Assembly: GCF_021556475.1 (NCBI RefSeq)
Contig: NZ_JAKGBZ010000029.1
Location: 1 to 47,489 of the forward strand
From: Acidiphilium iwatense
GTDB taxonomy: Bacteria; Pseudomonadota; Alphaproteobacteria; Acetobacterales; Acetobacteraceae
DNA length: 47,489 nucleotides
Direction of reading: 5' to 3'
Shown: piece by piece, positions 29,668 to 45,196 of the stretch
How positions within the stretch are numbered: position 1 is the first letter of the stretch
Layout: each line of letters starts with the position of its first letter
Position numbers and translations under genes: made by a program
The notes under the pieces: generated by a model
Told to the model about the DNA's origin: nothing
What the model saw: only the letters and a program-made list of their open reading frames with translations
Databases searched by the model: none

Positions 29668-30750
29668 ATGACCGGCCGCGCGATCCTGACCCTCAACGCC
29701 GGATCGTCGAGCGTGAAATTCGCGGTGTTCCTCGCCGGCAATCCGCCCCGGCACGCTCTTCAGGGCGCGATCGAGGGAATCGGCGCGCAGCCGCGATTCC
29801 GCGCTGGTGATACCCAGGAAGACTGGTCCGATACCGAGGGGTTCCACGCGCTGACCGGCCGGCTGCTCCGCTGGATCGAAGCGAACGAAACCGCCGGCCC
29901 GCTGGTCGCGGTCGGCCACCGCATCGTCCACGGCGGCGACGATTTCACCGCCCCGGTGCCGCTCGACGACGTTGTTCTTGAACGGCTCGCCGCCTTGGCG
30001 CCGCTCGCCCCGCTCCACCAGGCGCATAATCTCGAGCCGGCGCGGATGGTCGCCCGGCACCGGCCCGATCTGCCGCAATTCGGCTGTTTCGATACCGCGT
30101 TTCACCGTACCATTCCGCCACTGCACCGCACTTTGCCGCTGCCGGCGAAACTCGGGCTCCGGCGCTACGGGTTTCACGGCCTGTCCTACGAATTCATCGC
30201 GCACCGGCTCGCCGAACTCGGCATCACGCGGCATCGCGTCGTTATCGCGCATCTCGGCAACGGCGCGAGCGCCTGTGCGCTGCGCGATGGTGTCAGTATC
30301 GACACCACCATGGGCGCGACCGCGCTCGACGGGATGATAATGGGCACAAGGTCCGGTTCGGTCGATCCCGGCGCGCTGCTCTATCTGATGACCGAACGCG
30401 GCTTCGATGCCGAAGCGCTTACGAATCAGCTCTATGACGAGAGCGGGCTGAAAGGTGTGTCCGGCCTCTCCGGCGACATGCGCGAACTGCACAAGAGCGA
30501 TAAGGCGGAGGCACGGCTCGCGATCGCGCTGTTCGTGCTGCGCGCCGCACAGGAAATCGCGCGCATGGCGGTCTCGCTCGGCGGCATGGAGTGCCTCGTA
30601 TTCACCGGCGGCATCGGCGAGAACGACGCGGCGATCCGCGATGCCATCGCCGAACGCCTTGCCGGTGCCGGCATGGCCACGGAAATCCGCGTGATCCCGA
30701 CCGACGAGGCAGCGATGATCGCGCGGCACGTGATGGAGCAACTTGGTTAG
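29668..30750 (+). CDS. ackA: acetate kinase
   Basis: The 360-residue cytoplasmic enzyme converts acetyl phosphate and ADP to acetate and ATP. Motifs include NAGSSSVKF at the N-terminus, GHRIVHGG near 78, CFDTAFH near 137, [10 protein letters not shown] near 165, [12 protein letters not shown] near 194, [11 protein letters not shown] near 224 and FTGGIGEND near 312. It is somewhat shorter than the usual 395-400 residues, yet all the catalytic motifs are present. It lies 5 bp after the SDR gene and 25 bp before xfp, so it probably uses the acetyl phosphate made by the phosphoketolase. No phosphotransacetylase gene is nearby. Confidence 0.95.
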
Positions 30751-30775
30751 GGTACACACCCTGGAGGAGGCGGCG

Positions 30776-33133
30776 ATGGCGAAGCGGAAATCGGCTCTTT
30801 CGGCGCGAGACGCGAAACTGATCGATGCGTATTGGCGTGCTGCGAATTATCTCTCCGTCGGCCAGATCTATCTGATGGACAATCCGCTGCTGCGCGAAAC
30901 CTTGCGCCCCGAGCACATCAAGCCGCGCCTGCTCGGCCATTGGGGCACCACGCCAGGGCTGAATTTCGTCTATGCGCATATGAACCGGCTGATCCGGGCG
31001 CGCGACGTGAATGCGATTTTCATTTGTGGGCCGGGTCATGGCGGCCCGGCGGCGGTGGCTAACGTGTATCTCGAAGGCACCTACAGCGAGATTTATCCGA
31101 ATATCGGCCGCGACGAAGCCGGATTGAAGCGCCTGTTCACCCAGTTCTCGTTTCCCGGTGGAATCCCGAGCCATGTCGCACCCGAAACGCCGGGTTCGAT
31201 CAACGAAGGCGGCGAACTCGGCTATGCGCTGCTGCATGCCTATGGCGCGGTGTTCGACAATCCCGATCTGCTCGCCTGCTGCGTGATCGGCGATGGCGAG
31301 GCGGAAACCGGCGCGCTCGCCGCGAGCTGGCACTCCAACAAATTCCTCAACCCCAGGCGCGACGGCGCGGTCCTGCCGATTTTGCACCTGAACGGCTGGA
31401 AAATCGCCGGCCCCACTATTCTCGCGCGCATCGCCGAGGCCGATCTGTTCGCTTTGCTGCGCGGCTATGGCTACGATCCGCGCATCGTCGCCGGCGACGA
31501 TCCGATGACGATGCACCATGCGATGGCCGAAGCGCTCGATGCCGCGCACGACGCTATCGCCGCGATCCAGAATCAGGCGCGCGCTAACCAAAACGCCATC
31601 GAGCTGCCGCGCTGGCCGATGATCGTTCTGCGCACGCCGAAAGGCTGGACCGGACCCAAGGCGGTCGATGGGCTGAAGGTGGAAGGCACGTTTCGCGCGC
31701 ATCAGGTGCCGCTCTCGGCGGTGCGCGACAACGACGCGCACCGCGCCATGCTCGAAGCCTGGATGCGCGGCTACAAACCGGAGGATCTGTTCGACGATAC
31801 CGGTGCGCTGATCCCGGAACTCGCGGCGCTGGCGCCGGAGGGCGCGCGGCGCATGGGTGCCAACCCGCACGCCAATGGCGGGCTGCTGCGCCGCGACCTC
31901 GATTTGCCGGATTTTCGCGACTATGCCGTCGATGTCGCGGTGCCGGGTGCGACGATGGCGGCGTCGACCCACGTGCTCGGCGCCTGGCTGCGCGACGTGA
32001 TCGCGCGCAATCGCGAAACCTTCCGGCTCATGGGACCGGACGAGACCGACAGCAATCGCCTGTCGGCGGTGTTCGAGGCGACCGACCGGGTCAGCATGGC
32101 CGAACGCACCAAGGACGATGTCAGCGTCGGCCAGGATGGACGGGTGATGGAGGTGCTCAGCGAGCATCTGTGCCAAGGCTGGCTGGAAGGCTATCTGCTG
32201 ACCGGGCGGCATGGCTTGTTTTCCTGCTATGAGGCGTTCATCCACATCGTCGATTCGATGGTCAACCAGCACGCGAAATGGCTGAAGACCACGCAGAAAA
32301 TCGACTGGCGCAAGCCGATCGCCTCGCTCAATTATCTGCTGACCTCACATGTCTGGCGCCAGGACCATAACGGATTTTCCCATCAGGACCCTGGATTCAT
32401 CGACCATGTCGCCAACAAGAAGGCCGATGTGGTACGGGTCTATCTGCCGCCCGACGCCAACACGCTGTTATCGGTCGCCGATCATTGCCTGCGGAGCAAG
32501 AATTACGTCAACGTGATCGTCGCGGGCAAACAGCCCGAGCCGCAATATCTCACCATGGAGCAGGCGATCGTCCATTGCACCGCGGGTCTCGGCATCTGGG
32601 GCTTCGCCTCGAACGATCACGGAGTGGAGCCGGATGTGGTGATGGCCGCCGCCGGCGACGTGCCGACGCTGGAAACCCTCGCCGCGATCGACCTGCTGCA
32701 CCATCATTTGCCCGAGCTGAAAATCCGCATGGTCAACGTGGTCGACCTGATGGCGCTGCAACCGCCCTCCGCGCATCCGCACGGCATGGACGATCACGAT
32801 TTCGATTCGATTTTCACCACGGACCGGCCGGTGATTTTCGCCTATCACGGCTATCCGATGCTGATCCACCAGCTGACCTATCGCCGCGCCAATCACCACC
32901 AGTTCCATGTCCACGGCTATCGCGAGGAAGGCACCACGACGACGCCGTTCGACATGACGGTGCTGAACGAACTCGATCGATTCCACCTCGCGATGGCGGT
33001 GATCGATCGGGTGCCCGGCCTGTCCAGCACGGCCGCGCATGTTAAGCAGGAACTGCGCGGCCGGCTGATCGCGCATCGGCGCTGTGTCACCACCACCGGA
33101 GACGATCTGCCCGAAATCCGCGACTGGCGCTGA
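30776..33133 (+). CDS. xfp: phosphoketolase
   Basis: This ThDP enzyme (785 residues) splits xylulose 5-phosphate (and often fructose 6-phosphate) with phosphate into acetyl phosphate and glyceraldehyde 3-phosphate (or erythrose 4-phosphate). The family N-terminus is seen as [15 protein letters not shown], then GPGHGGPA near 93 and the ThDP site [17 protein letters not shown] near 175. GGAGGAGG lies 5 bases before the ATG; the open frame begins further up but without such a site. The length fits the family (about 790). With AckA it yields ATP and acetate from pentose phosphates. Confidence 0.96.
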
Positions 33134-33167
33134 CCGGCAGCCGATAACTGAAATAGGTTACAAAGCG

Positions 33168-33195
33168 GCCCTTTGTTTCACGTGAAACAAAGGGC
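33168..33195. promoter_or_regulatory. parS: parS centromere-like ParB binding site
   Basis: A perfect 28-bp palindrome (14-base arms, centre between 33181 and 33182) contains TGTTTCACGTGAAACA at 33174-33189, an exact match to the classical chromosomal parS consensus. It sits between the convergent stops of xfp and eno, a place free of coding sequence. Chromosomal parS sites usually cluster close to the replication origin. Reading it as a terminator is less likely because no T-run follows on either side. Confidence 0.85.
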
Positions 33196-33217
33196 AGTTA
33201 TTGTGACTAACTTTTGG

Positions 33218-35033
<1,816 letters not shown>

Positions 35034-44872: not shown

Positions 44873-44929
44873 CCGGATTCGGTGCGCGCTCTATTCCGCC
44901 GGCTCCCCGATCTGGCTGGAGAAGAACCG

Positions 44930-45196
44930 ATGGTGCTCGATACGGCTGACAATGCGACGACCGGCAATATCGCGGCGGACCGGCTGAAAAGCATCGTCGA
45001 GCGGATCGAGCGGCTGGAGGAGGAACGCAAGGCGCTCGCCTCCGACATCAAGGACATTTATTCGGAAGCGAAATCCGCCGGCTTCGACGTGAAGGTGCTG
45101 CGCCAGCTCATCCGCATGCGCAAGCAGGAGCCGGCGGAGATCGAGGAGCAGGAGACGCTGCTCGACGTATATCGTCGCGCTCTCGGAATGGCCTGA
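44930..45196 (+). CDS. gapR: DUF2312 nucleoid-associated protein (GapR)
   Basis: This 88-residue basic coiled-coil protein has the DUF2312 core ADRLKSIVERIERLEEERKALASDIKDIYSEAKSAGFDVKVLRQLIRMR. In Caulobacter the family member GapR clamps overtwisted, AT-rich DNA ahead of forks and RNA polymerase and supports topoisomerase action. It lies 57 bp after DUF1244, and GGAG is 8 bases before the ATG. The identity as GapR follows from family membership. Confidence 0.93.
   Translation: MVLDTADNATTGNIAADRLKSIVERIERLEEERKALASDIKDIYSEAKSAGFDVKVLRQLIRMRKQEPAEIEEQETLLDVYRRALGMA

Follow-up and report, generated by a model that had tools for sequence, protein, structure and literature searches.

In ParABS systems it is established that ParB loads at parS and then spreads to the flanking DNA (PMC7333895). 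In Caulobacter, a second parS cluster was tolerated within about 500 kb around the native one and mid-arm positions were disfavoured (PMC5815017), and in Pseudomonas parS was needed within about 650 kb around oriC (PMC5098823). Across this work, added parS sites were tolerated or worked only within roughly 500-650 kb of the native parS or the origin, and extra parS placed far from the origin or from the native parS was harmful (PMC5815017, PMC5098823, PMC7333895). Sets of 20-23 parS sites are described in Streptomyces coelicolor and Listeria innocua, where they are said to lie near the origin (PMC7333895). The cause of varying parS numbers and the expansion of such regions are stated as open questions in these papers (PMC5815017, PMC5098823, PMC7333895).

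The site described here lies in a 47,489-nucleotide stretch of Acidiphilium iwatense DNA (the window), which is contig C79 of a 4.16-Mb draft genome in 156 contigs (G000). With a probability of about three in four, it appears to be a genuine chromosomal parS and one of 14 exact extended elements, plus one with a single mismatch, that are spread along the chromosome. Such a set is unusual: fourteen exact copies, many of them with shared flanks, extend over about 1 Mb or more, in place of a few next to the origin. A search of the open-access literature did not bring up any account of parS from Acidiphilium or Acetobacteraceae, nor of chromosome-scattered parS sites.

A parS core between xfp and eno

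The original prediction placed an exact classical parS core inside a 28-bp perfect palindrome, in a noncoding gap between convergent genes, and direct reading of the window bore out each part of this (Table 1). The palindrome is GCCCTTTGTTTCACGTGAAACAAAGGGC; the next base pair outward (33167/33196) is G/A and unpaired, so that the symmetry ends at 28 bp. The 16-bp core is the exact consensus palindrome and was the sole match in the window when up to three mismatches were allowed. Among 100 shuffled windows the mean was 0.02 core matches and two windows had one. The gap is 84 bp long (33134-33217), and both of its neighbours were identified with NCBIfam models. The eno family match begins at residue 41, so the true start of this gene is probably further in. 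The window also encodes a GapR-like DNA-binding protein of a nucleoid-associated family, 10 kb from parS (44882-45196; PF10073, 112.7 bits).

Table 1. Features at the junction of xfp and eno, in window coordinates
Feature	Position	Strand	Basis
parS core TGTTTCACGTGAAACA, candidate ParB loading site	33174-33189	.	exact consensus; 14 exact copies in the genome
Perfect palindrome of 28 bp, with 6 bp on either side of the core	33168-33195	.	direct reading
Type A arm AAGGGCAGTTATTGTGACTAAC, eno side	33190-33211	+	20/22 against type A arm of C102a and C131
GTTA-N7-TAAC dyad, putative target of a second protein	33197-33211	.	such dyads adjoin parS in 7/7 cases in G000 and 2/2 in relatives
Second, weaker, diverged arm, xfp side, outward AAGGGCCGCTTTGTAACCTATT	33152-33173	-	11/22 to either arm type
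xfp, phosphoketolase, left neighbour, start codon uncertain	30743-33133	+	NF003621, 1458.1 bits
eno, enolase, right neighbour	33218-34612	-	TIGR01060, 673.8 bits

Copies in the genome and linked parAB genes

The lack of any other parS in the genome had been named in advance as evidence against the original prediction; a search of the whole genome gave 14 exact cores on 11 contigs, and a control pattern read backwards gave none. Two near-cores were also detected, one at C57 with one mismatch and one at C76 with two mismatches and no flanking similarity. Six ParB-family matches were found in G000, of which only C146:59979-60488 was above the cut-off (202.6 bits). An exact core at C146:58366 lies 1.6 kb from this match, inside the start of rsmG, and is followed by a ParA-family gene and then parB. 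The ParA-family protein encoded between rsmG and parB is matched by models that score under their cut-offs. The ParB itself is 58-83% identical to the ParBs of the eight genus-mates compared and has kept the PFQPR, GERR and ENLQR stretches. The exact consensus, the 14 genome copies and the presence of one copy beside parAB make the window palindrome very probably a real parS, as had been proposed.

At the parAB locus some of the first RsmG residues (FVSRET; L030:5023-5652) are encoded by the linked parS itself, and centromere and protein use the same bases there. The five further ParB-family matches (L012-L016) score below the cut-off; they fall on other contigs, in frames 681-805 aa long, and are perhaps plasmid-borne. 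Matches to the MipZ model (PF09140) were uninformative, as all 13 genus genomes and all 14 controls matched with generic ParA relatives.

The extended element and its dyad

Around most cores, some 22 bp of flank on each side is similar between sites, and the perfect palindromes at the 14 exact sites are 16 to 34 bp long. Two arm types recur, which read outward are AAGGACAGTTATTATGACTAAC (type A) and AAGGCACCAGACCGGACCTAAT (type B). The arms of the window palindrome, which the original prediction judged to exceed what parS needs, are part of this longer element recurring at other sites. Arms are weak at C102b (11/22 and 9/22) and diverged at C46 (partly weak), C24L, C73aR and on the xfp side of the window.

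A sequence-only model was built from 20 sites, and 150 of the 326 first-look candidates in G000 were scored with it. The model found full or near-full elements in G000, G004, G005, G010 and G012, and shorter matches, resting mostly on the core, in G001-G003, G006, G007 and G009. The window element is matched on the minus strand (G000:C79:33148-33217, 64.6 bits) and is among the sites used to build the model. When the core was allowed to change, just two weak matches were added among the 150 G000 candidates scored, at C92 (20 bits; core with a one-base deletion) and C91 (13 bits). Changed cores were seen in relatives: ATTTCACGTGAAAT, a symmetric double change that is still palindromic, at thiE in G005 (L104:4213) and at G004:C33 (L094 near 5050), and TGTTTCACGCGAAACA at G012:C10. 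An element after thiE is common to G000, G010, G004 and G005, the G005 core being the altered palindromic one, and in G012, G002 and G003 no core was present within 200 bp after the thiE match.

Type A arms carry a GTTA-N7-TAAC dyad. The 210,470 bases of G000 DNA searched gave seven dyads, all of them in parS elements. A further 1,074,884 bases from relatives gave two, which belong to thiE parS elements and each begin 23 bp after the core start, the same as in the window. The dyad was confined to parS sides in the 1.29 Mb searched (9/9), with the motif derived from the same sequences and the DNA sample non-random. No dyad half-sites were found within elements at other spacings from 3 to 12, and among 64 four-letter half-sites of similar composition no other exceeded two occurrences in elements. 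The dyad was also compared with a CtrA-like site, an identity that was rejected since the CtrA spacing and half-sites do not fit. It is possible that the dyad is the binding site of a second protein, which would be a candidate partner of the partition complex.

Conservation and gene context of the copies

The recurrence of the arms raises the question of whether the element is a short dispersed repeat (MITE-like or REP-like) whose parS core was multiplied in this lineage, with most copies as passengers. Such a repeat would fit the long and near-identical arms seen, for instance, at C102a and C131, and the finding of many copies in G000 only, among the genomes searched; the sequence beside parS in rsmG, which the type B arm resembles (C146L, 18/22), is a possible source. 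We nevertheless regard this explanation as unlikely. Set against the better-fitting arm type, the arms had 167 mismatches in 660 positions, compared with 1 in 240 for the cores; this contrast is inflated, since searching for the exact core is what first picked up 14 of the 15 copies. At pdxA, the one site where insertion and replacement could be told apart, the core within the gene aligns without gaps to three relatives, a variable stretch having been rewritten at the same length with no net insertion, which is a replacement and not an inserted copy. The arms at the thiE site are common to several species, and no copies were found in viral contigs (two patterns, with the phage collection left out) or in plasmids (one query). 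At the other sites compared for an empty-site state, the neighbour genes differ in relatives. The best reading is that the cores are selected ParB loading sites.

Eight of the 15 sites lie between convergent genes, two inside genes, one between divergent genes and four in tandem or unclear contexts, the last including C80b, which overlaps the doubtful start of a predicted gene. The convergent share (8/13 intergenic sites) exceeded the background whether sites were removed from it (0.118, P 2.7e-5) or kept (0.219, P 0.0023), in a test that used our own rough gene caller and loci picked around the sites. A two-way terminator hairpin between convergent genes would account for this placement, and the window palindrome scored as terminator-like on the plus strand, with folding that beat shuffled sequences (z -5.5 and -4.5; at C102a, z -3.6 and -3.0). 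Some relatives also bear hairpin-like repeats instead after eno, secF and paaD. Termination is nonetheless very improbable as the main role of the element: the T tract in the window is weak (AGTTATTGTG), the C131 site folded no better than shuffles (z -0.9 and -0.8; two of three folded sites beat them), any palindrome folds, the sites inside genes and between divergent genes do not suit a terminator, and an exact 16-bp parS is not needed for termination. Selected ParB loading remains the preferred reading of the cores.

The hairpin-like sequences of relatives after paaD and secF have the form CTTTTTT...AAAAAAG (L114, L123 and L124) and stand where G000 has parS elements. A NUDIX-like reading frame (L023:4542-5027) enters a parS element; comparison with G010 and G004 suggests that the final residues of the frame are encoded by the element.

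Occurrence among relatives

The number of exact cores set G000 apart, with 14 compared to 0-3 in the 12 genus-mates searched; the two genus-mates without any core are 78% and 88% complete. The wider family was surveyed with 394 genomes of at least 90% completeness, evenly drawn from a larger group. A core was carried by 196 of these, with 14 in G000, six in G265 and 0-3 in the remainder. Inspection by eye of 24 cores, in seven of the nine family genomes outside the genus with at least three cores, found the extended arms absent.

Genomes G265 (L192-L196) and G228 (L197), from another genus of the family, have up to six cores, several of which are flanked by TTTCCTA or its complement, and these may be extended parS sites of an independent set. 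Paired parS cores whose starts are 36 or 40 bp apart were present in G003, G005, G007 and G009 (L036, L038, L040 and L041).

Spread along the chromosome and distance to the origin

The 11 contigs with exact cores, even when packed as tightly as possible, give the cores a span of 987,129 bp, or 24% of the assembly; this minimum assumes that the core-bearing contigs are chromosomal, and the neighbours of the sites are mostly housekeeping genes. The contig that bears parAB (C146, 113.5 kb) holds one core only. Neighbour genes of the 14 sites outside C146 were placed for 12 sites in G002 and 11 in G003 (C124 was placed in neither, C57 only in G003, and C1 and C135 only in G002). Distances to the parAB-linked parS were smallest for pdxJ on both contigs (0.30 Mb on G002:C18, 0.22 Mb on G003:C6) and largest for paaD on G002:C18 (1.78 Mb) and for thiE on G003:C6 (1.28 Mb), the maximum on G003:C6 becoming 1.43 Mb if a 59%-identity acyltransferase match is a true orthologue; both contigs were treated as circles and gene order is fluid, so these distances are guides only. 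In these two relatives, which have megabase contigs, eno lies 1.08 Mb from the parAB-linked parS in G002, on one contig, and 0.97 Mb from it in G003, the latter distance holding only for a contig that closes into a circle. The gene names recG, pdxJ, pyk, gapR, hemB and DUF488 were tested in this analysis.

Other genus-mates place some of the same genes near dnaA. In G004 a single contig carries dnaA together with rsmB, fhs, pdxJ and eno, at distances of 51-86 kb from it. The corresponding distances in G010 are 50-80 kb for secF, eno and pdxJ and 357-367 kb for fhs and rsmB, and in G012 secF is 36 kb away from dnaA. Were dnaA to mark the origin, an arrangement of this kind would bring several sites close to it. 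The dnaA gene and parAB are 0.65 Mb apart in G002 and 0.74 Mb apart in G003. The sequence GGGNAGGG, the FtsK-orienting sequence of E. coli, was used as a putative marker of replichore strand. Its strand switched in G002 at 3.28-3.46 Mb, close to the parAB position of 3.49 Mb, with a second switch at 1.46-1.64 Mb; in G003 one switch was clear at 0.94-1.13 Mb and the other was blurred over about 2.6-3.6 Mb, a range that includes parAB (3.01 Mb). By this marker the origin side of G002 is near parAB, and the same holds less clearly for G003. The window has five copies forward and one reverse, too few to tell. GC skew gave no readable signal above the noise in 20 stretches from each of G002 and G003, and a dif-like pattern had no match in any of six genomes.

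These maps also bear on whether the sites are an ordinary origin-proximal parS cluster that only seems scattered because the assembly is in 156 contigs. The usual position of parS is near oriC (PMC7333895), and dnaA lies within 87, 80 and 36 kb of genes next to sites in G004 (rsmB, fhs, pdxJ and eno), G010 (secF, eno and pdxJ) and G012 (secF), respectively. Against this, the tightest ordering of contigs still needs 987 kb, the parAB contig has one core in 113.5 kb, and the neighbours of 12 of the 14 other sites in G002 and 11 of 14 in G003 map widely dispersed, which makes a hidden cluster quite unlikely. The clustering of parS within about 50 kb that the original prediction looked for was not found, as the cores on 11 contigs span at least 987 kb, and for the same reason a parS alone does not mark oriC in G000. 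The claim that the window is origin-proximal is unproved. It gains from the position of eno, about 50 kb from dnaA in both G004 and G010, and from a breakpoint in G002, where the window neighbours gapR and hemB are at 3.32 Mb, about 170 kb from parAB, and the genes from eno to pyk are at 2.40-2.41 Mb; it loses from the spread of the G000 cores, from the distance of about 1 Mb between eno and parAB in G002 and G003, and from the strand marker, whose origin side is near parAB in G002 and, more faintly, in G003.

Proposed function and comparison with known systems

If the sites work as dispersed parS, ParB would be loaded at the 16-bp core, from which it would move outward in the form of a sliding clamp. 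The AAGG/CCTT extension and the arms probably tune this loading, or would bind a second factor through the GTTA-N7-TAAC dyad. With sites spread over at least 0.99 Mb, ParB and the condensin or ParA activity that it recruits may be loaded at many places and not at one origin-proximal patch. The sequences directly show the copies and their outlying number, the recurring arms, the better-kept cores and the minimum span; that ParB binds every site, what the arms and dyad do, how segregation is affected and how far apart the sites lie on the map are inferences from them. Given the distance limits in Caulobacter and Pseudomonas, it would be surprising if many distant sites were functional; either the distance rule is relaxed in this species, or the distant sites are silent or otherwise used.

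A more far-reaching possibility, which we consider doubtful, is a composite dispersed centromere in which parS cores, often at a set distance from the dyad of a second protein, would let ParB act genome-wide. If true, it would contradict the rule that extra parS sites stay near the origin, and ParB could serve, for example, as a nucleoid-wide condensin loader or in a Noc-like role. One genome with 14 exact sites over at least 0.99 Mb and 12 genus-mates with 0-3 sites make up a natural experiment, in which close relatives allow ParB occupancy, condensin loading and segregation to be compared. The parS-linked dyad, in turn, points to a possible new partner of the partition complex.

The Noc binding sites of Bacillus are dispersed sites for a ParB-like protein, and the P1 parS is a composite plasmid centromere with host-factor and second box motifs. 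The G000 sites share dispersal with the former, but their core is the parS sequence and only one ParB-family match is above the cut-off. With P1 parS they share a partition core with flanking motifs; they differ in being chromosomal, in having the classical 16-bp core and a different flanking motif, and in that the second factor is putative. The sets of S. coelicolor and L. innocua likewise have high copy numbers, whereas the G000 sites extend over at least 24% of the assembly and were found in one of the 13 genus genomes searched. The closest likeness is to chromosomal ParABS systems, with which G000 has in common the 16-bp core and the encoding of ParA and ParB with an adjoining parS; it departs from them in having 14 exact copies over at least 987 kb, not an origin cluster, and in the recurrent arms and dyad.
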